The notes beneath the pieces are model-generated. The model worked only from the letters and a program-made list of their open reading frames with translations. It was not told the DNA's origin and did not search any database. This document shows, in pieces, positions 11,066 through 59,683 of a DNA stretch of 64,000 bases. The position numbers were made by a program, and so were the translations under genes. The stretch is from Anaerovorax odorimutans (lineage in GTDB: Bacteria; Bacillota; Clostridia; Peptostreptococcales; JAAYPU01), in assembly GCA_016841185.1 (NCBI GenBank), contig JAENZQ010000010.1, positions 1-64,000 of the forward strand. Direction: 5' to 3'. Every line of letters starts with the position of its first letter. The first letter of the stretch is position 1.

Positions 11066-12751
11066 ATGGATAAAAAGAAGAAAAAACAATTTGCTATCAT
11101 CGGCTTAGTTGTCCTAATCGTCATTATGGGATTGTTCTTGGCTATAAAAGCACTTATCGGAAATAATTCCAAAGAAGCCGATGGGCCTATATATTCAACT
11201 GCAGAAGTGGTCAAAGATGATATTCAGGTAGGCGTAAAAGCCAAGGGTATGCTTCAACCTACATACGGAGGAGAAATTGAAGTTTCTGATAACAGGCGTT
11301 CCTGGAATATGCCTTCAGTAGATTTTGTCGTTGAAGAAGTACTGGTTAAAGAAGGCGATCCTGTCACTCAGGGACAGTTGATCATAAAGCTGGTTTCGCC
11401 CAATCTGGAGGAAACGCTGGAAACCGAAAAAGAAGAATTGGATTCTCTTTTAACGGAGCTTTCTGAAATGTCCGGAAAACCCAAGTCACAGGTAGAAAGC
11501 CTTAATCCTGCCCAGGGAATCGTCCTTCCCGCCCCCATTGACGGACGTGCCATTAATCTGGAAGTCACAGAGGGAAATACCTTAGATGTAGGACATATTA
11601 TTGCAACCATTGTGGACGATTCTAAATTCCGGGTAAAAGCTAAACTAACCACCGGGGAAATAGCTAAAGTAAAACAGGGAGACCAAGTCCTGCTGGACTT
11701 CCCCAATTTTTCCGGAACAATAGAGGGGACTATCACCAGTATCAGCAACGCGCCTATTCCAAGCCAGGAAGAAGGCTCCGAGTATACCTCCGGTTATACG
11801 TATGTCGCCTATATTACCGGAGAGAATCCGGGTTTGGTCCAAAAAGGTATGACCGTTGCCGTAGGGTTGCCTTCCGGTGACATGGGGATATCCTATTTTA
11901 AATATAATGCAACCGTTGACGGTTTTATGAAAGAAGAAAAACTCCTCAACAAAGTAGATGAAACTATTATAACGGAGGTCCATGTTGATAACTATCAGCT
12001 TGTTGAAAAAGGGGACCCCATCGTTACTTTGTCGGGTGACGAGATGCAGGAAAAAATCCGCATGAAGCTGGATCAGATACGTGACCTAAGACATACCATA
12101 TCCCAATTGGAAGAGCAATTCGGTTATCTTGAAGTAAAATCCACAATTAATGGCATTATTTCAAATCTGGATGTTGAAGTGGGCGATACCGTATCTCCAT
12201 GGGATTGGTTGGGCAACATTTATAATACTGATAAAATGCGATTGTATATCCAGGTGGATGATATAGATATTGTCAATGTAGTACAGGGGGCTCCTGTATC
12301 CGTAACGGTAGATGCCATGCCGGGAGTTTCTTATAATGGTACGGTTTTAAATGTGTCCAGTCACGGTGAACAGTCCGGAGGCATTACTAAGTATGATGTA
12401 AATGTAGAGGTTTCCGGAGGTGAGGGCCTTCGGCCGGGCATGCAAGCAACTGCTTATATCGATGCCGGAAGTGCAGAGGATGTACTGATTATTCCTGTAG
12501 AAGCAATATTTGATGAAAATGGAGAGCAAATGGTAGAAGTTCTGAAGGACGGTGTTCCAACGCTTACAAAAGTCACTTTAGGGCTTATGAACGACCGATA
12601 CGCCGAAGTTCTGGAAGGTCTGGAAGAAGGACAACTGGTGATCACCGGCAGCAGTAGTGATATGCTGCCCAGCGAACATATCCAGGCAGATGATTCTTTG
12701 ATGCCTTCAGGAAATGGTTCAGATGATGATAACTCAACAGATGGCGAATAA
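11066..12751 (+). CDS. Membrane-fusion (HlyD/YknX-type) adaptor with duplicated modules
   Basis: Membrane-anchored adaptor of 561 residues, with one N-terminal transmembrane helix (about 9-29) and an extracytoplasmic body. It starts 1 bp after the ATPase stop. It appears to contain two lipoyl/barrel-sandwich modules. One has VKEGDPVTQGQLIIKL and IVDDSKFRVKAKL (about 90-200); the other has VEKGDPIVTL, a short coiled coil (MKLDQIRDLRHTISQLEEQF) and DVEVGDTVSPWDWLGNI (about 310-400). The end holds the usual C-terminal domain (IPVEAIFDENG...VTLGLMNDRYAEVLEGLEEGQLVI) and an acidic tail. Typical adaptors are nearer 370-400 residues. The substrate is unknown. Confidence 0.85.
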   Translation: MDKKKKKQFAIIGLVVLIVIMGLFLAIKALIGNNSKEADGPIYSTAEVVKDDIQVGVKAKGMLQPTYGGEIEVSDNRRSWNMPSVDFVVEEVLVKEGDPVTQGQLIIKLVSPNLEETLETEKEELDSLLTELSEMSGKPKSQVESLNPAQGIVLPAPIDGRAINLEVTEGNTLDVGHIIATIVDDSKFRVKAKLTTGEIAKVKQGDQVLLDFPNFSGTIEGTITSISNAPIPSQEEGSEYTSGYTYVAYITGENPGLVQKGMTVAVGLPSGDMGISYFKYNATVDGFMKEEKLLNKVDETIITEVHVDNYQLVEKGDPIVTLSGDEMQEKIRMKLDQIRDLRHTISQLEEQFGYLEVKSTINGIISNLDVEVGDTVSPWDWLGNIYNTDKMRLYIQVDDIDIVNVVQGAPVSVTVDAMPGVSYNGTVLNVSSHGEQSGGITKYDVNVEVSGGEGLRPGMQATAYIDAGSAEDVLIIPVEAIFDENGEQMVEVLKDGVPTLTKVTLGLMNDRYAEVLEGLEEGQLVITGSSSDMLPSEHIQADDSLMPSGNGSDDDNSTDGE

Positions 12752-12768
12752 CAGCCGGAGGCTAAGGT

Positions 12769-14121
12769 ATGATGGATAAAAAATTAAATCAGACGTTTTT
12801 AATAAAGCTCCTGTTTACTGCCAGAATGGCACTTCAGGGATTGATACTGAATCCTCTCAGAACTACGTTAACAGTTCTGGGCGTTACCATTGGCGTTGCA
12901 TCAGTGGTATCTCTTATGGGGATCGGTGAAGGGGCCAGGGTCGCAGTTATGGAACAATTTGAAAGTCTTGGAACAAATGTTATTAAAATTGCCGCTCATA
13001 ATTCAACTTATGAATTTCATCCTGAAATCATTGAAGAATTGACAGGACGTGTTCAGGGAATGGATTACAGCAGCCCCGTGGTCAATGCGGAAACAAGGAT
13101 GCAGTGGAAACGGAGCCGCGTGGATATCAATGTAATGGGCGTCAACGAACAATTCAGAACTATACGGGATTATGAGATTATTGATGGTGAATTCATCTCG
13201 TCTTATCATGTCAAATTGCGTTCAAATGTAGCTGTAGTAGGATATGCCATAGGAAAAAATTTGATGGGCGGCCGGTCTCCAATAGGTCGGTATATTTCCC
13301 TCGATGGCGAAAGCTACCAGATCATTGGCGTTTTAGGTGAAAAAGGTGCAGGCAAATCCGATGATGTGGATAATAAAATCATCATCCCTTATACATGTGC
13401 TCAAAAGATTGCCGAAAAAAGAACTGTAGAAGAAATTTGGTGCAAAGCCAATTCCCGTGAAGAAGCAAATCTCGCAGTAGTTCAATTAAGCAGAATCGTA
13501 AAGAGGATGTTCAATATCGGAGAAAATAATGCCCCCAGCGGTGGTGCCGCATCCGGCGGGTCTGCCGATCCTTCGGTCACAGAAACGATGTCTGCGGGAA
13601 TGGAAATGCAAGTAACTGAAAAAAGAATGCCTATGGAAAGTGAAGAGCCCTCTATTCCTTCGTCCGGCAGCAGTAAAGATGTCATTACTATCACTAATCT
13701 TAATCAGATGGTACAGGAAGCAGATGAAGCCAACAGGGTCATGACCCTGTTGTTAGGAGGCATCGCTGCTGTTTCATTGCTGGTGGGCGGTCTTGGAATC
13801 ATGAATATCATGCTGGTTGCAGTCACCGAGAGAACCGGAGAAATCGGATTGCGAAGGGCTTTAGGTGCCCAAAAGAATGATCTTCTGATTCAATTCCTTC
13901 TTGAAGCCTTATTCATAAGCCTTATCGGAAGCTTTGCCGGAATTATATTGGGCATTGGAGGTACCATGATCTTTGAAAACTATGGTTTTGACACCGCTAT
14001 CAGTTTAAAGGCTATTTTCATTGCAACCATTGTTGCCCTTTGCTCAGGCACTGTCTTCGGCGTATACCCGGCATTTTCAGCAGCATCCATTCCGCCTGTG
14101 GTAGCTTTACGAAGGCAGTAA
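12769..14121 (+). CDS. MacB/YknZ-type ABC exporter permease
   Basis: Permease of 450 residues: one N-terminal membrane helix (LRTTLTVLGVTIGVASVVSLMGIGEGAR), a large extracytoplasmic MacB-like domain (about 50-300), then three C-terminal helices in an FtsX domain (LLLGGIAAVSLLVGGLGIMNIMLVAVTERTGEIGLRRALGA and onward). A Gly/Ser/Ala-rich, probably flexible insert lies near 245-305. The ATG has GGAGG 7 bp upstream. With the preceding ATPase and adaptor it forms a YknXYZ-like efflux system, likely exporting a peptide, toxin or antibiotic; the substrate cannot be read from the sequence. Confidence 0.9.
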   Translation: MMDKKLNQTFLIKLLFTARMALQGLILNPLRTTLTVLGVTIGVASVVSLMGIGEGARVAVMEQFESLGTNVIKIAAHNSTYEFHPEIIEELTGRVQGMDYSSPVVNAETRMQWKRSRVDINVMGVNEQFRTIRDYEIIDGEFISSYHVKLRSNVAVVGYAIGKNLMGGRSPIGRYISLDGESYQIIGVLGEKGAGKSDDVDNKIIIPYTCAQKIAEKRTVEEIWCKANSREEANLAVVQLSRIVKRMFNIGENNAPSGGAASGGSADPSVTETMSAGMEMQVTEKRMPMESEEPSIPSSGSSKDVITITNLNQMVQEADEANRVMTLLLGGIAAVSLLVGGLGIMNIMLVAVTERTGEIGLRRALGAQKNDLLIQFLLEALFISLIGSFAGIILGIGGTMIFENYGFDTAISLKAIFIATIVALCSGTVFGVYPAFSAASIPPVVALRRQ

Positions 14122-14944: not shown

Positions 14945-15190
14945 CCTCAATATATGATCTAAGATCTATGGTCTAAGATATAGGATCTATGATTTATGGT
15001 GGAAATTTTCTTTAGAAAATTTCTGTCCATCCCTAACCTCTAACTCCTAACTTACTCCATATTCCATAATCTATAAACTGAACTTAATCACGTTACAAAT
15101 TACAGGTTACAGAGATTGCTTCGCTGTGCTCGCAATGATACAAAAGTGAAAGTTTAAGTAGTTACTTGCTCTTAAACTTATTCATTGTAA
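14945..15190 (+). repeat. Composite heptad/hairpin repeat between recR and yaaK
   Basis: The stretch contains a tract of 7-bp units of the type GATCTAA/GATCTAT (14955-14997), the hairpin GGAAATTTTC...GAAAATTTCT (15001-15024), TAACCTC-like units, a TAATCTA-like tract, and the GC-rich module ATTGCTTCGCTGTGCTCGCAAT (split ATTGC 15116-15120, GCAAT 15133-15137). The modules are those of the element at 23951-24320, but in shuffled order. Confidence 0.8.
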
Positions 15191-17225: not shown

Positions 17226-17261
17226 TCCGGCACCTCCCTCTCCTGCTTATAAGAAAAAGAT

Positions 17262-17440
17262 AATAAATAATAGATAACAGTTCAAGAAGTTTTGTTTGCA
17301 CAAAACCCATTAATTATGTATTATACCATACTTCATATTTTGATTTAAGATTTAAGGTTTAAGATTTTATGAAGCGATTTTGTCCATAGCTTTGCAACAT
17401 CTCCACTATCCAATCTTAAATTTTAATTCTTAAATATGTA
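17262..17440. repeat. Partial heptad-repeat tract upstream of dnaX
   Basis: The tract holds GATAACA-like units, the word GTTTTGTTTGCACAAAAC (a small hairpin) and units of GATTTAA/GGTTTAA (17340-17365). It lies between the dnaX start and the SRP RNA terminator. It resembles parts of the composite element but lacks the GC-rich module. Confidence 0.6.
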
Positions 17441-17964: not shown

Positions 17965-18031
17965 TGGGGATTTTGTGAAACAAAATACTCCTTAACTGTT
18001 ATCTTTTATATATTATCTGTTATCTTTAAGA
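17965..18031. repeat. Short hairpin plus heptad tract after prfB
   Basis: The stretch contains GATTTTGTGAAACAAAATA, a hairpin like the one in the composite element, then 7-bp units TTATCTT, TTATATA, TTATCTG, TTATCTT. It ends at the prfB stop codon. A separate hairpin GGACAACC-AAAAA-GGTTGCCC lies at about 17925-17945 between this tract and the tRNA. Confidence 0.6.
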
Positions 18032-19169: not shown

Positions 19170-19387
19170 GTGGTTAGAGATTAGAGGTTAGGGATGGACA
19201 GAAATTTAGCTGCAGCTAAATTTCTACCATTTAACACTTACACTTACATTTTTATGTCATTGCGAGCACAGTGAAGAAACCTCGTATTTATATGCAGATT
19301 TTGTTTATCAAAATTTCCATAATCTATAATCCATACTCTATACTCTAAGTATCTTTTATCTGACTTTAACCTGTCCTCTGTTCTCTG
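19170..19387 (-). repeat. Composite heptad/hairpin element between prfB and secA
   Basis: This is a minus-orientation copy of the element. In + order it contains TTAGAGG units, a palindrome with arms AGAAATTTAGC and GCTAAATTTCT, ACTTAC units, the GC-rich module CATTGCGAGCACAGTGAAG, the hairpin GATTTTGTTTATCAAAATTT, TAATCTA/TACTCTA heptads, and the conserved end matching ACAGRTTAAAGTCAGATAAA on the other strand. More heptads (TTATCTT-like) lead into the secA stop codon. Confidence 0.85.
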
Positions 19388-23950: not shown

Positions 23951-24320
23951 CACAGGGAACAGATTAAAGTCAGATAACAGATAATAGTTGAAGTTGGTTT
24001 CGTTCCAAAACCTCAATTATTACAGGGCAGGTGGCAGATTAAATGTAGGATAATTAGAGTATAGATATGGATTATAGATTATGCAAATTTTGTTTAACAA
24101 AATTTGCATATAAATACGAAATTGCTTCGCTGTGCTCGCAATGACACAAAAGATAATAAGATTTAAGATTTATGATTTAAGGTAGAAATTTAGCTGCAGC
24201 TAAATTTCTTACCACAACTGTTATCTATTATCCATTATCTTATTACTGCCTCTAACCCCTAACCTCTAATTTAATCTATACTCCATAATCCATAATCCAT
24301 ACTCTATAATCTAATTATAT
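23951..24320 (+). repeat. Most complete copy of the composite heptad/hairpin element
   Basis: About 370 bp without a reading frame. Modules in order: a conserved head (CAGATTAAAGTCAGATAACA); heptads TAATTAGAGTATAG; hairpin 1, GCAAATTTTG-TTTAA-CAAAATTTGC (24083-24107); the GC-rich hairpin module with ATTGC 24121-24125 and GCAAT 24138-24142; GATTTAA/GATTTAT heptads (24158-24180); a perfect 26-bp palindrome (24184-24209); then heptads TTATCTA/TTATCCA, TAACCCC/TAACCTC and TAATCCA/TACTCTA. The same order occurs at 34497-34803 (reverse), 44289-44522, 19170-19387 and 43478-43670 (partly). Confidence 0.9.
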
Positions 24321-34496: not shown

Positions 34497-34803
34497 GTTA
34501 AAGAGTATAGATTATAGAGTATGGATTATGGATTAAATTAGGATTAGGGGTTAGAGGCAGTAATAAGATAATGGATAATGGATAATAGATAACAGTTGCG
34601 GTAAGAAATTTAGATGAAGCTAAATCTCTACCATTTTAAACTTACACTTATACTTATACTTACACTTACACTTTCACTTTTGTGTCATTGCGAGCACAGC
34701 AAAGCACTTTCGTATTTATATGCAGATTTTGTTTAGCAAAATTTCCATAATCTATAATCCATACTCTATACTCTAATTATCTTTTATCTGACTTTAATCT
34801 GTC
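34497..34803 (-). repeat. Composite heptad/hairpin element overlapping the permease 3-prime end
   Basis: Near-complete minus-orientation copy of the element at 23951-24320, with all modules in the same order: heptads, the AGAAATTTAG-type hairpin (about 34602-34627), ACTTAC/ACTTAT units, the GC-rich module CATTGCGAGCACAGCAAAGC, hairpin GATTTTGTTTAGCAAAATTT, TAATCTA/TACTCTA heptads, and the conserved head. The head lies inside the permease reading frame and encodes its last residues. Confidence 0.9.
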
Positions 34804-36240
34804 CCCTGTAACCTGTACAATTTCCTGCCTTGCGTATTCTTCTCCGAACATCAATACTTCTCTTTCTGAATCGGAAATATTTGAATATGAGTTCTTTGTC
34901 AACGCTGCAAGAACAGCACCTATTGTAAACCAAACAAATACCAATCCCCATTCTTGAGGCCATACAAGCCCGCCGCTTGGAGCAATGGGAGAATACATAA
35001 ATAAAAAAAACAAACCGGTAAATATTGCTCCGCCACCGACAAAAACACTTTTTTTAACTTTATAAGGTCTTGCCAAATCAGGTTCTTTCTTTCTCACCAT
35101 AATAAAAGATACCGATACCATCAGATAGGCTACGACTGTTCCGAATGCACCAGCATTGACGAACCAAACCAAAGCATTTTTACCTAGTAGCGGAGATAAA
35201 GCACAGAGAAGCCCGACCAGAATGATAGCTGCAGTTGGCGTGTGATATTTCGGATGTACTTTTCCAAACACCGGAGGAAGCATTTTAGCTCTGCCCATCG
35301 CAAATAAAATTCGGGTCCCTCCTAACATAAATCCGTTCCAGCTGGTCAGTACGCCGCACAATCCCCCGGCAATCATGATTTTTCCGAAAGTAGGAGAATT
35401 AAATGCATAAGCCAGGGAATCGGCAACAGGAATTGCAGCAGAATTTCTGACTTCAGGCGGTGCGTTAAGGGCTATACCTATGATCATGATAATATACCAT
35501 GATACTGCCATGATAATAGAAATAATCAAAACATTTGCAATCTGTCTCAGGGGAATATTCATTTCCTCCGCTGATTGTGGGATAACGTCAAATCCAACAA
35601 ACATTGAAGGAACAGCCAACAAAACAGCTACCATTCCGGCCCCGCCGGTAAAAGCCGGTACCATGTTTTTAACACTTCCAAATGCAAGGCCTCCAAATAT
35701 AAAAATCAGTCCCGCCAAGATCAGTCCTACGGTAGCCATGACCTGAAATATGGCAGATGTCTTTACCCCAAAATGATTGACAATGGATAAAATCAGTGCT
35801 CCGGCAATTCCTATTACCGCCCAAGAAAAATATACCGGATATCCTGCAACATCCCATAAATAACCTATCTGAGGAATAGGAAAAACATAATTGATAGCAG
35901 TTGCAACAGCAATGGATTCCCACGCTGCGACAGAAACGTACGCAAATGAAATGGCCCATCCCGCGATCCATGACCAGGTATAACCCAATCCCCGGTATGC
36001 AAATACCAGTTCTCCTCCTGCCAAAGGAAGAGCAGGTGTTAATTCAGCATATACGGTTCCTACAAATATACACATGATCGCTCCTATTAAGAAAGCGCCT
36101 ATTGCTCCAAGAACACCGGCCTGATCGACCCAATAACCGGCAAGCATGACCCATCCCCAGCCGACCATTGATCCAAAGGCTAAAGCGAGTACATCGGTAC
36201 GTCCCATTACTTTTACCAGTTCTTGTCTTTCGTTACTCAT
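34777..36240 (-). CDS. APC-superfamily amino-acid permease
   Basis: Integral membrane transporter of 487 residues with about 12 helices. The first helix carries GSMVGWGWVMLAGYWVDQAG, and the second region PALPLAGGELVFAYRGLGYTWSWIAGW is typical of APC transporters. It likely takes up or exchanges an amino acid. It lies 55 bp downstream of an NtrC-type regulator and its sensor kinase, on the same strand, so it may be their target or part of the same operon. The last eleven residues (VTGDRLKSDKR) are encoded by the conserved head of a repeat element. Confidence 0.88.
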   Translation of the reverse strand: MSNERQELVKVMGRTDVLALAFGSMVGWGWVMLAGYWVDQAGVLGAIGAFLIGAIMCIFVGTVYAELTPALPLAGGELVFAYRGLGYTWSWIAGWAISFAYVSVAAWESIAVATAINYVFPIPQIGYLWDVAGYPVYFSWAVIGIAGALILSIVNHFGVKTSAIFQVMATVGLILAGLIFIFGGLAFGSVKNMVPAFTGGAGMVAVLLAVPSMFVGFDVIPQSAEEMNIPLRQIANVLIISIIMAVSWYIIMIIGIALNAPPEVRNSAAIPVADSLAYAFNSPTFGKIMIAGGLCGVLTSWNGFMLGGTRILFAMGRAKMLPPVFGKVHPKYHTPTAAIILVGLLCALSPLLGKNALVWFVNAGAFGTVVAYLMVSVSFIMVRKKEPDLARPYKVKKSVFVGGGAIFTGLFFLFMYSPIAPSGGLVWPQEWGLVFVWFTIGAVLAALTKNSYSNISDSEREVLMFGEEYARQEIVQVTGDRLKSDKR

Positions 36241-41160: not shown

Positions 41161-41300
41161 AAAAAAACCTCTTTCTTAGAAGAGGTACATAATACCCTCA
41201 TCTACCAGAAAATTCATTCTGTAGGACTTAGCACCTTGACATATACATATCAGGTTGCCGGGCTTCACCGGGCCTATTCCCTCTGCCTCTCTTGATAAGG
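41161..41300 (-). promoter_or_regulatory. SAM-I (S-box) riboswitch with terminator
   Basis: On the minus strand the leader begins CTTATCAAGAGAGGCAGAGGGA (41299 downwards), then holds the S-box segments GGCCCGGTGAAGCCCGGCAACC and AAGGTGCTAAGTCCTACAGA, and a closing helix. An intrinsic terminator, CCTCTTCTAAGAAAGAGG plus T-run, ends at 41161. It lies 65 bp before metK and fits SAM-dependent termination. Confidence 0.95.
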
Positions 41301-41398
41301 TAATACAATATGAATTTCACATTTATTCTATCATAGTAAACTGAAATGTCAATATTTACACTTTTTCAGTTTTAATCCTCTTCTCTTTCTATAATGAT

Positions 41399-42268: not shown

Positions 42269-42349
42269 CAAAAAACCTTCCTGACAAAATCAAGAAGGTT
42301 TTACTTACTACTTTTCCCTGATTCTGTCTCTGTCATCTGATCAAAGCAG
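42269..42349 (-). promoter_or_regulatory. Leader with terminator directly before panC
   Basis: A terminator-like hairpin (arms ACCTTCTTG and CAGGAAGGT on the minus strand, then TTTTTT; 42269-42303) is preceded by a second possible stem-loop at 42308-42349 (CTGCTTT...AAAGTAG, with inner GAT/ATC pairing). The position suggests attenuation of panC. RNA elements called pan motifs are known upstream of pantothenate genes, but I cannot confirm a match. It may instead only end the DUF4349 transcript. Confidence 0.5.
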
Positions 42350-42474
42350 AAATCAATTTTATTTTGTGTAAAATGATATTATGTGTGTGATTCTTACGAT
42401 ATCACCACTTATATATAATCATACAAGTTTAATCGGATTTTTCAACTATTTTCTACAATAGTTCATTTTTCATC

Positions 42475-43477: not shown

Positions 43478-43670
43478 TTAGGGGTTAGAGGTTAGAGGCA
43501 GTAATAAGATAATGGATAATGGATTAAATTAGAGGTTAGAGGTTAGGGGTTAAGGGTAGACAGAAATTTTCTAAAAGAAAATTTCTACCTTAAATCTTAT
43601 TTCCTTTTATGTCATTGCGAGCATATCGAAGCAATCTCTATTTTATAGATTATGGATTATAGAGTATGGA
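43478..43670 (-). repeat. Composite heptad/hairpin element downstream of the COG2426 gene
   Basis: Shows TTAGAGG and GATAATG heptads, a palindrome with arms AGAAATTTTCT and AGAAAATTTCT (43564-43588), the GC-rich module CATTGCGAGCATATCGAAGCAAT and TATAGAT/TATGGAT heptads. It lacks hairpin 1. It fills most of the 324-bp gap between the COG2426 gene stop and the DUF4349 start. Confidence 0.85.
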
Positions 43671-44208: not shown

Positions 44209-44288
44209 AAGAATTCCCCGTCTCTTTACAAATCATCTAATAAAGATTATATTCTATTAGTAACAAGGATACAATAGGAATTACAGAA

Positions 44289-44522
44289 CAGGGAACAGGT
44301 TAAAGTCAGATAAAAGATACTTAGAGTATAGAGTATGGAATATAGATTATGGAAATTTTGCTAAACAAAATCTACATATAAATACGAGATTGCTTCGCTG
44401 TGCTCGCAATGACATAAAAGTGTGAGTGTAAGTATAAGTGTTAAATGGTAGAAATTTTCTTTAGAAAATTTCTGTCCACCCCTAACCACTAATTAATCAC
44501 TAACCTCTAACCTCTATTACAG
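44289..44522 (+). repeat. Composite heptad/hairpin element upstream of the TtcA-like gene
   Basis: Plus-orientation copy: head (AGGTTAAAGTCAGATAAAAG), TAGAGTA heptads, hairpin GAAATTTTGCTAAACAAAAT, GC-rich module ATTGCTTCGCTGTGCTCGCAAT (as ATTGC...GCAAT, 44389-44410), GTGTAA units, palindrome with arms AGAAATTTTCT and AGAAAATTTCT (44450-44473), and TAACCTC heptads. It ends within 10 bp of the TtcA-like start codon, so any promoter for that gene must lie inside or before the element. Confidence 0.9.
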
Positions 44523-45699: not shown

Positions 45700-45785
45700 A
45701 TAAAAGATTAGAGATAACAGATAATAGTTCAAGTTGATTTTTCCTATTAAGGCAAAATCTCTTTTTTTATCTCTTATCTTTACAG
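45700..45785. repeat. Short heptad tract between convergent genes
   Basis: GATAAAA, GATTAGA, GATAACA and GATAATA units, then a T-rich stretch and TTATCTC/TTATCTT units. It matches the flanks of the larger composite elements without the hairpins. Confidence 0.6.
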
Positions 45786-56374: not shown

Positions 56375-57274
56375 TCATTTTAAATTACTCAGACGATAAA
56401 TATAAATATCTGTTATATCTGTTTTGTATTTTTCTTTTGCCGCGTCATCTGCTATAATGTTTGATATTGCCGGCTGCGATAGGTTTAATATTTGAGCCAG
56501 TTCTTTGTTCGATACTTCAGAATATTTTTTAGCCAGAAAAACAACCGTCTTCCTTGCTTCAACAAATCTGCTCGTCCTGACTTTTAAACTTATCTCTCCC
56601 CTTGTAATATTATAGTACTCACATACAGCGTCCACTATATCAACTAATGGATAATTATAATTATTCTTTTCTTTAACCTGATTATCCTCGATATCAATCA
56701 TCAATTCTTCATCTTTAAGATTCTTTATTCCATTTTCTTTTATGCCGATAAATTCATTATATCCTTCCAGTTGCTGTTCTAAGCTTTTTCCAAATAAACT
56801 TAAAGGAAACTGTCTATCAACCAAACTGTCAAGGTTGTCCCCAATATAATTCTTATGACTGCAATATGTATAATTTAAACCTTCTTTTATTCCTGCTCTT
56901 TGAGGGTTTTGGTGTATATATCGGATCAATGACAATAAGTAATGATCTCTATTGCATAATATTGCTTTATGTCTTTGCTGAAACACATGCCCGCTTCTGT
57001 TATTCTTCTTGTTATAATAATATGTGTAGACTTGCTGTACTCCTTGCATAATCTTAGACAGTGGAATCTCGCCGACTTCTATCAGCATATGTGCATGATT
57101 CCCCATAATGCAGTAGGCATAGAGTTTAAACCGATATCGTTTTTTATATGTTCTAAGCAGTTCTAAATACTTTGCTTTTTCATGCTCCTTTTCAAAAATG
57201 TAATCTCTGTTATTTCCACGGCAGATCACATGATATAAAGCACCTTCATAATGGATCCTCTCTTTTCTTGCCAT
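56375..57274 (-). CDS. REP-associated tyrosine transposase (Y1/RAYT) with DnaA-C-like domain
   Basis: Single-strand DNA nuclease-type transposase of 299 residues, apparently intact. HUH motif HAH at 60-62 (GNHAHMLIEV) and the catalytic Tyr in LIRYIHQNPQRAG (Tyr119). The C-terminal third (DIVDAVCEYYNITRGEISLK through NKELAQILNLSQPAISNII) resembles the DnaA DNA-binding domain, as in other Firmicutes members. RAYTs act on short palindromic repeats. Five copies of a 21-bp repeat lie within 2.4 kb downstream of its start region (57431-59635). ATG follows AAGGAG. Confidence 0.9.
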   Translation of the reverse strand: MARKERIHYEGALYHVICRGNNRDYIFEKEHEKAKYLELLRTYKKRYRFKLYAYCIMGNHAHMLIEVGEIPLSKIMQGVQQVYTYYYNKKNNRSGHVFQQRHKAILCNRDHYLLSLIRYIHQNPQRAGIKEGLNYTYCSHKNYIGDNLDSLVDRQFPLSLFGKSLEQQLEGYNEFIGIKENGIKNLKDEELMIDIEDNQVKEKNNYNYPLVDIVDAVCEYYNITRGEISLKVRTSRFVEARKTVVFLAKKYSEVSNKELAQILNLSQPAISNIIADDAAKEKYKTDITDIYIYRLSNLK

Positions 57275-57462: not shown

Positions 57463-58257
57463 CTACAATTTGTTGAGAAACACCCTAAAACTCTTGCTTC
57501 TATCAAAGTTTTTACTTACATATTCCGAATTGTTCTGAGCCTTCTTTAAATAGCTCTCATAATCATTATTTATTTTATATAATGCTTTTATAAGACTGTC
57601 TTCTTGGTGTGCGTCAAAATATTCTCCGCAATGAAGTTCATCCAATATTTCTTTGCCTTCACCTTCTATACCATATACAATGGGCTTGTTTACTTAAATA
57701 ATCAAATACCTTGGAAGGTATTGTCTTCTCAAAAGATTCTTTCTTTTCTAATGCCAGAAATAGTATATCTGCAGTTTTCTTTACTGATCTAATGGTTTCG
57801 TCTTTTGGCATACTTCCATAATACTGAATATTAACTCCGTCTTTTTTTGCCTCTGTTAATAACTTGTCTCTAAAGGCTCCATCCCCTATAACATGAAAAT
57901 CAAATCTATTTTTTAATGATTTATCTATATTGAATGCCTTAATTAATACATCTAATTTTTGTGCCCGTCCTATATTCCCCGCATAAAAGATTGTGCGTTT
58001 TGCCTTATTCACAGCAATTCCTTCACTCTCCTTTATAGTCGGAATAATATGTATATCTTTTTCTGATACCCCATTGTAAATTACATGAATTCTTTCTTTA
58101 TTTGTATATTGACATATATAATTATACATCTTGCCTGAAACGCATATAATTTGATCTGCTTTCTTATACATAAAAGTTTCAAGTTTTTTCGTCATCTTAT
58201 AAATAATTGATTTATCAGATATCATACCGGCATCAACTGCAGAATCAGTTGTTAATG
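57463..58257 (-). pseudogene. Glycosyltransferase family 4 fragment with a frameshift
   Basis: C-terminal GT-B half of a WbuB/CapM-like glycosyltransferase. The open frame enters from the repeat at 58258 with TTDSAVDAG, then MISDKSIIYKMTKKLETFMYKKADQIICVSG, and VIYNGVS...IFYAGNIGRAQKLDVLIKAF. Near 57690 the frame breaks (DYLSKQAHCIWYRR then stop), while the next frame continues KPIVYGIEGEGKEILDELHCGEYFDAHQED to the stop at 57463; one base is missing. The N-terminal acceptor domain is absent. Both ends of the fragment lie at GCCTGACCCC repeats. Confidence 0.85.
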
Positions 58258-58278
58258 AATTATAAAAGCCTGACCCCT
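58258..58278 (+). repeat. RAYT-adjacent 21-bp repeat, copy 2
   Basis: Exact GAATTATAAAAGCCTGACCCC (21 bp, cited in two parts GAATTATAAAA and GCCTGACCCC). It marks the break point of the glycosyltransferase fragment and lies 20 bp beyond the MNT stop codon at 58299. Confidence 0.85.
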
Positions 58279-58298
58279 TCTTTAACTAAAAAATTTAA

Positions 58299-58604
58299 CT
58301 ACCTTTGATAAAAAACTACCCCAAAATCTTCAATATGTTTTCTTAAACCGTCATGTTTCAATGAATCATAATGTACTATATCAAAATAATATGGTATAGG
58401 TAATTTTTCATTTAATTCAACACTCAGATTATTTACTGTTTCTTCGGTAATAAAGGACCCATAAATAGCTAAATCAATATCAGAACCGTTCTTATAATTC
58501 CCTATAGCACGACTTCCAAAAATAGCTGCTTTCTCTATTTCTTCTCTTTTCATAAGAGCATGTACGATCATATCTTTACTTCTTGGTGTTATTCCAAATT
58601 TCAT
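58299..58604 (-). CDS. MNT-type nucleotidyltransferase, second pair
   Basis: Protein of 101 residues with GSRAIGNYKNGSDIDLAIYG, the nucleotidyltransferase motif, paired by a 4-bp overlap with the HEPN gene upstream. It lies in the stretch bounded by two GCCTGACCCC repeats (58258 and 59160). Likely antitoxin or modifier of the partner; function is inferred from family context. Confidence 0.88.
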   Translation of the reverse strand: MKFGITPRSKDMIVHALMKREEIEKAAIFGSRAIGNYKNGSDIDLAIYGSFITEETVNNLSVELNEKLPIPYYFDIVHYDSLKHDGLRKHIEDFGVVFYQR

Positions 58605-59002
58605 ATTTCTCTTCCTAACAAACTATGGACTTGTGATATTGCAGAATAGTATTCTTGCTTTATTTTATTTACAGCTAAATCAAATCTTTTTTCATCATAT
58701 GTATGGGCTAAAATATTTCTTTTCTCTAACATATCCATCCATATTTCTCCGTCTTGTATTAACTCATAATGGTACGCTGCTTTAATGACTTCTCTTGGGA
58801 ATTTGACATCTACTTCTTTGGATTCCAAATAATCTTTCAGTGTCTTCCATGCCAATTCAAAAGTATACTCAAATCTTTGAATCAATCCCTCTTTTTCAAG
58901 TTTGCTCAATTTATCGAAATCTGATATTGCAGAATCTAGTTGATCATAAGCTTTATTAAAGTTCTCAAATCTTTGACGCCATCTGATTTCTTTCGCATTC
59001 AA
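58601..59002 (-). CDS. HEPN-domain partner, second pair
   Basis: Helical protein of 133 residues, HI0074 type (GLIQRFEYTFELAWKTLKDYLESKEVDVKFPREVIKAAYHYE), with the HEPN motif RNILAH. Its first 80 or so codons and about 150 bp of upstream DNA are repeated almost exactly 437 bp further on (59131-59590). Confidence 0.88.
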   Translation of the reverse strand: MNAKEIRWRQRFENFNKAYDQLDSAISDFDKLSKLEKEGLIQRFEYTFELAWKTLKDYLESKEVDVKFPREVIKAAYHYELIQDGEIWMDMLEKRNILAHTYDEKRFDLAVNKIKQEYYSAISQVHSLLGREI

Positions 59003-59130
59003 TCAATCATCTCTCCTCGCCAATAATCCTTCCATAATATAATTTATAAACTATTTTATCATATTATATTTGACCTGTATATGACTTCCATTTCCGAACT
59101 CCGAACCTCTAATGAATTATATAAAGTGAA

Positions 59131-59439
59131 TTATAAATGAATTATAAATGAATTATAAAATGAATTATAAAAGCCTGACCCCTTTTCTTCCTCCATTAGT
59201 TCATAATGATAGGCTGCTTTAATTACTTCTCTTGGGAATTTGACATCTACTTCTTTGGATTCCAAATAATCTTTCAGTGTCTTCCATGCCAATTCAAAAG
59301 TATACTCAAATCTTTGAATCAATCCCTCTTTTTCAAGTTTGCTCAATTTATCGAAATCTGATATTGCAGAATCTAGTTGATCATAAGCTTTATTAAAGTT
59401 CTCAAATCTTTGACGCCATCTGATTTCTTTCGCATTCAA
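59131..59439 (-). pseudogene. Truncated duplicate of the HEPN gene
   Basis: Residues 1-81 are identical to the HEPN protein at 58601-59002, then the frame runs into a GCCTGACCCC repeat and ends with the repeat-encoded tail EEEKGSGFYNSFYNSF. The RNxxxH motif and the MNT partner are missing, so it is probably inactive. The duplication includes the promoter region of the gene. Confidence 0.85.
59160..59180 (+). repeat. RAYT-adjacent 21-bp repeat, copy 3
   Basis: Copy of GAATTATAAAA-GCCTGACCCC followed by TTTTCTTCCTCCA. It is preceded by three tandem TGAATTATAAA units and lies at the junction where the duplicated HEPN fragment breaks off. Confidence 0.85.
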
Positions 59440-59576
59440 TCAATCATCTCTCCTCGCCAATAATCCTTCCATAATATAATTTATAAACTATTTTATCATA
59501 TTATATTTGACCTGTATATGACTTCCATTTCCGAACTCCGAACCTCTAATGAATTATATAAAGTGAATTATAAATG

Positions 59577-59647
59577 AATTATAAAAGCCTGACCCCTTTT
59601 CTTCCTCCATAAATGAATTATAAAAGCCTGACCCCTTTTCTTCCTCC
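59577..59647 (+). repeat. RAYT-adjacent repeats, copies 4 and 5 in tandem
   Basis: Two copies of GAATTATAAAA-GCCTGACCCC-TTTTCTTCCTCCA occur 38 bp apart (59577-59609 and 59615-59647), the last just before the 3-prime end of the glycosyltransferase at 59684. Confidence 0.85.
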
Positions 59648-59683
59648 AAACGATTTGCCTATTAAATTTTGCAGCAGAAACAA

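Follow-up and report, generated by a model that had tools for sequence, protein, structure and literature searches.

Heptad-armed palindromic repeats and their mosaics in the intergenic regions of a Clostridia genome

The stretch of DNA examined here (the window: 64,000 nucleotides, contig C84, 36% G+C, part of the 3.56-Mb Clostridia MAG G000) carries several long intergenic composites of tandem tracts and hairpins, and the question is whether such a composite, that at 23951-24311 for instance, is one mobile element or an assembly of smaller ones. A sequence-only reading had taken it for a copied, composite, non-coding element, possibly mobile, with at least six large copies throughout the window.

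Three genomes represent the GTDB family of G000 here, the other two being G002 (Soudan_22) and G001 (AS22ysBPME_288). All genomes are MAGs, with a single genome per species, and the statistics come from samples, of which those of G002 (564 kb) and G000 (464 kb) are the largest. The G002 sample was partly picked for the presence of caps (a heptad tract with its tag), and the other samples partly for matches; thresholds were set by hand and the same data were inspected several times.

Composite copies in the window

The ingredients are imperfect 7-nt tandem arms, A/T palindromes and a REP-like hairpin of the form ATTGCGAGC...GCAAT. Five heptad types can be written as A, GA[T/G]TAT[A/G]; B, GGTTAGN; C, GATAANA; D, GATTTAA; and H, GAANAAT. 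Each has one or two free positions, A having two freer ones. Four composites keep one module order, and two more are partial or rearranged:

44284-44319 (+): outer head, F-type (ACAGGGAACAGG) then C-type (TTAAAGTCAGATAAAAGATA) heptad-like arm
44324-44352 (+): A-type heptad arm GA[T/G]TAT[A/G], G-rich strand inward, TTATGG end
44353-44372 (+): TTTTG/CAAAA palindrome
44389-44414 (+): REP-like hairpin ATTGCTTCGCTGTGCTCGCAATGACA
44420-44441 (+): hexad tract (AAGTGT)n
44447-44477 (+): A/T palindrome GGTAGAAATTT..AAATTTCTGTCC, CTTTAG allele
44481-44516 (-): B-type heptad arm (GGTTAGN), the facing arm
19172-19193 (+): B-type heptad arm, reversed copy
19196-19228 (-): A/T palindrome, GCTGCAGC allele
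19255-19283 (-): REP-like hairpin
19297-19316 (-): TTTTG/CAAAA palindrome
19317-19387 (-): A-type heptad arm, then C + F head
34503-34601 (+): A, B and C heptad arms in succession, GTTGCGG end
34604-34629 (-): A/T palindrome
34640-34681 (-): hexad tract
34683-34711 (-): REP-like hairpin TGTCATTGCGAGC...
34725-34744 (-): TTTTG/CAAAA palindrome
34745-34816 (-): A, C and F arms; gene 34777-36240 takes its stop (34777-34779) and some 12 final codons from here
23951-24012 (+): F/C arm with its own TTTTG-like palindrome GGTTTCGTTCCAAAACC
24022-24083 (+): F arm then A arm
24084-24106 (+): CAAATTTTG/CAAAATTTG palindrome
24121-24146 (+): REP-like hairpin
24160-24213 (+): D heptads GATTTAA, TTTAAGG end, then A/T palindrome (GCTGCAGC allele)
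24218-24311 (-): facing arms C, B, A
43481-43669 (-): partial copy with B, C, B arms, A/T palindrome and REP, without the TTTTG palindrome
14953-15160 (+): rearranged copy: arm, A/T palindrome, B/A arms, then F, REP, hexads
17247-17310 (+): single C-type cap (GATAANA)n-GTT..-TTTTG palindrome; G002 has a cap at the same place too
17971-18024 (-): single C-type cap and TTTTG palindrome
45700-45785 (no strand): C-type facing pair; G002 has a pair there too

Read in one direction, the order is F - C (AAAGTCAGATAA) - A heptads - TTTTG/CAAAA hairpin - ATAAATACGA - REP hairpin - hexads or D heptads - A/T palindrome - C/B/A heptads, and it is the same in 23951-24311 and, reversed, in 34503-34816, just as had been claimed. 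About 150 nt are common to 44284-44516 (+), 19172-19387 (-) and 34503-34816 (-) at 91-93% identity, and the core of 23951-24311 (+) is common to all three, which bears out a copied, composite, non-coding element. The count of six large copies stands for the four that share the order; 43481-43669 has no TTTTG hairpin, and 14953-15160 is not a regular copy, its palindrome/B part lying on the opposite side of the REP. Repetition is intergenic, but clustered rather than throughout the window, with the four good copies packed into about 25 kb. As far as examined the copies hold no reading frame, except that gene 34777-36240 (-) ends within 34503-34816, its stop and about 12 last residues (QVTGDRLKSDKR) being copy-derived.

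The conserved head was confirmed: the word AAAGTCAGATAA occurs seven times in the 3.56-Mb genome and not at all in a reversed control. Four occurrences are the window copies and a fifth lies in a similar repeat on contig C14; the remaining two seem unrelated. When a 246-nt copy was used as a BLASTN query, at least 45 places in the genome matched (40 of 156 candidates scored). One of them, C23:36276-36468, is a near full-length copy outside the window, while the other listed matches are mostly single modules or pairs, with partial copies on C36, C13, C35, C33 and C45. Neither relative, G001 or G002, holds the full chain.

The whole assembly, which the sequence-only reading had thought might be new as such, is not the unit: modules and sub-chains are found alone, and alleles of successive modules are shuffled. 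Copies have swapped modules with one another: in the alignment all four combinations are found of hexads or D heptads with the A/T palindrome allele, and likewise of this allele with a B or C tail. Modules scattered independently had been named as the outcome that would speak against a composite; the result lies in between, for scattered they are, yet the order REP - D/x - palindrome - B (or C) recurs on C23, C13 and C35, and the orientation rule set out below is general.

Arms, tag and predicted fold

Seven (and 14) is the dominant tandem period in G000. Its 464 kb hold 53 strict tracts of period 7, 48 of them non-coding, against 0-9 tracts (at most 7 non-coding) for each other period from 4 to 13; a shuffled window gave no heptad tract.

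If tracts are oriented by their G-rich strand (G over C), a general rule emerges: a G-rich heptad arm points inward, often ends in TTRNGG and meets a palindrome, and a second arm faces it. Neighbouring tracts within 300 nt face inward rather than outward in a ratio of 52:4 in G002 and 15:1 in G000, and in a first pass at 250 nt the only exception in G002 spanned a gene. The C-type cap neighbours of G002 are inverted in 25:0 cases, that is, two inverted ends round a spacer, and the unrelated genomes G269 and G697 give 6:0 and 5:0. Palindromes (stem of at least 7 within 60 nt of the tract end) sit at the inner versus outer end in 125 versus 11 of 194 tracts in G002 and 34 versus 8 of 80 in G000. 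The tag TTRNGG is likewise an inner feature (100 versus 6 in G002, 36 versus 3 in G000, 11 versus 0 in G790, 11 versus 1 in G697 and 8 versus 0 in G269). G001 fits poorly, with weak polarity (5:2) and no tag signal (3 versus 3). A typical G002 element reads (GATAANA)n-GTTAAGG-(GATTTTG hairpin)-spacer-(AGTTTTGC hairpin)-CCTTAAC-(TNTTATC)n.

One should also look at the letters within the arms. For the C arms of G002 the sixth base is free and the other six are 93-99% fixed; adjacent units differ at the free base with a frequency of 0.72, as independent letters of that composition would, and elsewhere with 0.02-0.09. Identity at the free position is 0.246 at lag 1, against 0.284 expected, and slightly above expectation at lag 2. 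We found no excess of shared 5-letter words of free bases in G002. G790 is the exception, its units being all alike.

Arms of one element are predicted to pair. In G002 an outer stem formed from the arms in 22 of the 22 cap pairs tested, with a mean z of -8.9 relative to mononucleotide shuffles, and in G697 a unit of about 66-118 nt is predicted to form an imperfect outer stem round hairpins. Across the stem, with arms picked out by short heptad regexes, the free bases form Watson-Crick pairs in 20 of 77 cases in G002 (0.35 expected from permuted partners, p 0.043), 3 of 17 in G697 (0.42, p 0.019) and 1 of 13 in G269 (0.40, p 0.066), which Fisher's method combines to about 0.003. The free position is thus mispaired above chance in two genomes and borderline in the third. 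In a small G697 alignment 17-33% of cells are paired in the free columns, compared with 93% in the remainder of the outer stem; covariation in it did not exceed that of shuffles. Arm lengths within G002 pairs are independent (r = -0.13) and the spacers unrelated. Facing arms in G000 are often of unlike type and should therefore pair poorly.

These observations lend no support to several simple origins. Against copying of an arm by fold-back from its partner stand the free letters, which match less than chance, and the uncorrelated lengths; against single-unit slippage in G002, the lag-1 identity below expectation; and against dispersal of arms as exact copies, the free-base words of G002, though cores are copied there and the G000 composites are true copies. 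Tandem stop codons do not account for the arms either: all frames of the G-rich strand contain stops in 167 of 194 tracts in G002 but only 44 of 80 in G000, and the arrangement is found at gene starts too.

Copying, spread and possible explanations

The suggestion of mobility gains from a difference between genera. Composite 34503-34816 is present in G000 and missing at the orthologous site of G002, its nearest relative (338 versus 30 nt between anchors), a difference that may be gain or loss, and a target-site duplication is unreadable at this pair because the flanks have diverged too far. Among 28 orthologous intergenic gaps of G000 and G002, about 16 hold tracts in both genera, mostly of different types. 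Cores are copied elsewhere as well: G002 has 57 homologous core pairs, with identity up to 89%, and G790 has near-identical core copies of up to 100%. Strings of free bases are not common to homologous cores in G002 (51/173), and since such cores carry unrelated arms, arms would appear to be remade or replaced faster than cores.

The heptad-arm plan also turns up in unrelated Clostridia, and its spread is patchy. The H-type cap, with the same tag, was found in 21 of 391 sampled Clostridia genomes, against 2 matches for the reversed control; the C-type cap had no match in 195 further genomes of the order. Of 30 H-cap loci, some of which resemble chance matches, 18 have a stem of at least 6 on the inner side and 5 on the outer, the palindromes being unrelated in sequence. 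Two genomes add further repeats: in G790, of an unrelated family, heptad caps accompany a different composite chain (TAAATTTTGGTTTAGCGTACC ... GTAG REP ... inverted end), and G269 has GTAG-REP-like palindromes inside heptad arms, often two inverted, which suggests nested repeats. Carriage by plasmids or phages was set aside, there being no match in PLSDB or INPHARED; viral contigs gave 15 pattern matches, with the facing-arm architecture in none of the flanks read.

The enzymatic side of the mobility claim fared less well, as no enzyme was found. Y1 transposase genes occur in all carriers tested, but heptad arms flank just one of 24 Y1/RAYT loci, from nine genomes, and that locus carries its own GTAG REPs; RAYT was rejected as the mobiliser, no RAYT gene carrying heptad-arm ends. 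Wherever flanks were read beside the Y1 transposase genes of the window's family, the end repeats proved to be of another kind, and the GC-hairpin REP motif is absent from the Y1_Tnp flanks read. A reverse-transcriptase origin was likewise dropped, RVT_1 being absent from G000. We know of no enzyme that spreads the heptad-arm plan.

Some neighbouring features deserve to be recorded. A RAYT/Y1_Tnp gene lies at 56375-57274 (-) of the window, and the repeats at 58249-59659 contain AATGAATTATAAAAGCCTGACCCC, which resembles the GGGGTCAGGCTTTCATAATTCATT end repeats beside other Y1_Tnp genes of the window's family. A 300-nt direct duplication (58758-59057 and 59195-59494, 98% identical, starts 437 nt apart) runs over short reading frames. 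At G002:C101, about 12130-12880, two facing heptad arms enclose a small RAYT gene that is itself flanked on each side by GTAG REPs; the orthologous place in G000 has an apparent remnant of that gene only. Rfam 15 matched only SRP, SAM, pan and tRNA in the window, the pan motif and SAM riboswitch lying at 42320-42408 (-) and 41195-41301 (-).

We give about even odds (roughly 0.5) to the composites being mosaics of short extragenic repeats built on an imperfect palindrome with heptad arms, a non-autonomous, REPIN-like DNA processed in trans. Its basic unit would read [7-nt unit]n - TTRNGG - palindrome - variable core - palindrome - CCNYAA - [7-nt unit]n, and the arms of one strand would fold into helices of about 6 bp with a mismatch at every seventh position and small hairpins at the tip; in the window, the core would hold the REP-like hairpin, with nested arms of several heptad types. 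An enzyme of the host or of a transposon may process the folded single strand in trans and so spread the units, the fixed heptad letters and the tag perhaps being its recognition signals, and an assembled chain could have been copied to a few places and reshuffled between copies by gene conversion or template switching. Long palindromes are unstable in DNA, and the periodic mismatch might spare this one the perfect duplex that nucleases would cleave or replication destroy. Trans-mobility, recognition and protection by mismatch are suggested by analogy to REPINs and by what is known of palindrome instability. A bolder version, which we advance tentatively and at rather less than even odds, would make these elements a separate class across many Clostridia families, with facing 7-nt arms, one position free and kept mispaired so that every seventh base is a mismatch, and many heptads and palindromes on one plan, recognised by structure rather than sequence.

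The arms might instead be kept by selection on RNA, folds transcribed in either direction stabilising or terminating the flanking mRNAs to the benefit of the host more than of a selfish element. The outer stem in all 22 G002 elements (mean z -8.9 against mononucleotide shuffles) and their position next to genes suit this, as does the link of E. coli BIMEs to Rho-dependent attenuation and of REPs to mRNA stabilisation; but the elements occur in intergenic regions of all three kinds, divergent, convergent and tandem, match no Rfam family and turn over in site between genera, and we regard a role in RNA as unlikely. If the tracts were ordinary heptameric microsatellites that arose next to hairpins by replication slippage, this would explain the dominance of period 7 (and 14), the slight excess at lag 2 and the uniform units of G790, and heptameric SSRs are over-represented in many bacteria (PMC4692102). 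Adjacent units of G002, however, are independent at the free position and near-invariant elsewhere, heptad types recur at many loci, and inward polarity, tag and mispairing tell against slippage too, so that this origin is already disfavoured and, in our judgement, improbable.

Mere accumulation, in which independent REPs, hairpins and heptad runs gather in permissive gaps and the window composites arise by local segmental duplication, accords with scattered modules, with the roughly 16 of 28 orthologous gaps filled in both genera by mostly different types, and with four good copies within 25 kb. It is hard to square with polarity, tag and inner-side hairpins in unrelated families too, or with an order that recurs on other contigs, and we give it little credence. 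Slightest of all is the chance of de novo synthesis of the arms, a telomerase-like addition to DNA ends, templated but degenerate, before two ends are joined: the free letter independent in each unit, the independent arm lengths (r = -0.13) with unrelated spacers and the inward-pointing G-rich strands would follow, whereas RVT_1 was not found in G000, cores are copied in several genomes and the preference for mispairing is unpredicted.

Comparison with known systems

The heptad-arm plan is little described. In the openly accessible literature searched, we found no description of the facing architecture, and words of the element sequence gave only unrelated matches among the matches listed. The nearest known systems are REPINs and BIMEs. 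BIMEs are mosaics of palindromic repeats in recurring combinations; so are the composites here, albeit with other units and with heptad arms in addition. REPINs are inverted REP doublets thought to be mobilised by RAYTs (Bertels & Rainey 2011, PMC3116915). Both they and our elements have two inverted conserved ends round a less conserved spacer, form hairpins, and are extragenic and dispersed within the genome; the ends here, however, are a TTRNGG tag and arrays of a 7-nt unit with a free, mostly mispaired position, and no RAYT flanked by heptad-arm ends was found among the 24 Y1/RAYT loci of nine genomes.

The suspicion that the GC-rich part might not be new proved sound, as it resembles a REP class known from other bacteria: the module TGTCATTGCGAGC..GCAATC is presumably akin to the CGTC class, although it reads TGTC and not CGTC. 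GTAG- and CGTC-tagged REPs have a short unpaired tag beside the palindrome, and the CGTC class is without a dedicated transposase (Di Nocera et al. 2013, PMC3733652). Our elements too pair a short tag with a palindrome, but their tag is TTRNGG and the heptad arms lie outside it; if our reading is right, they would join the GTAG and CGTC palindromic repeats as a third tag class.

MITEs are also short, non-coding and dispersed, with inverted ends, but here the arms are inverted repeat arrays, independent in length and in free letters, and the analysis turned up neither a target duplication, unreadable at the one occupied/empty pair, nor a parent transposon. Known heptameric simple repeats (cyanobacterial heptanucleotides and GGGNATC/GGGGATT, PMC4692102; TAACTGA, PMC4679880) are, like ours, intergenic 7-nt direct repeats, described mainly as single arrays, with some GGGAATC arrays in inverted pairs. 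Here, by contrast, the arrays as a rule face each other in pairs that show polarity, a tag, palindromes and a free position, and the likeness of neighbouring units that slippage brings to microsatellites is seen in uniform G790 but not in G002. Should this hold, some bacterial intergenic heptameric repeats would be the arms of folded elements and not microsatellites, and a testable structural rule, about one mismatch per seven bases, would serve to locate more of them and to trace the enzyme that acts on them.
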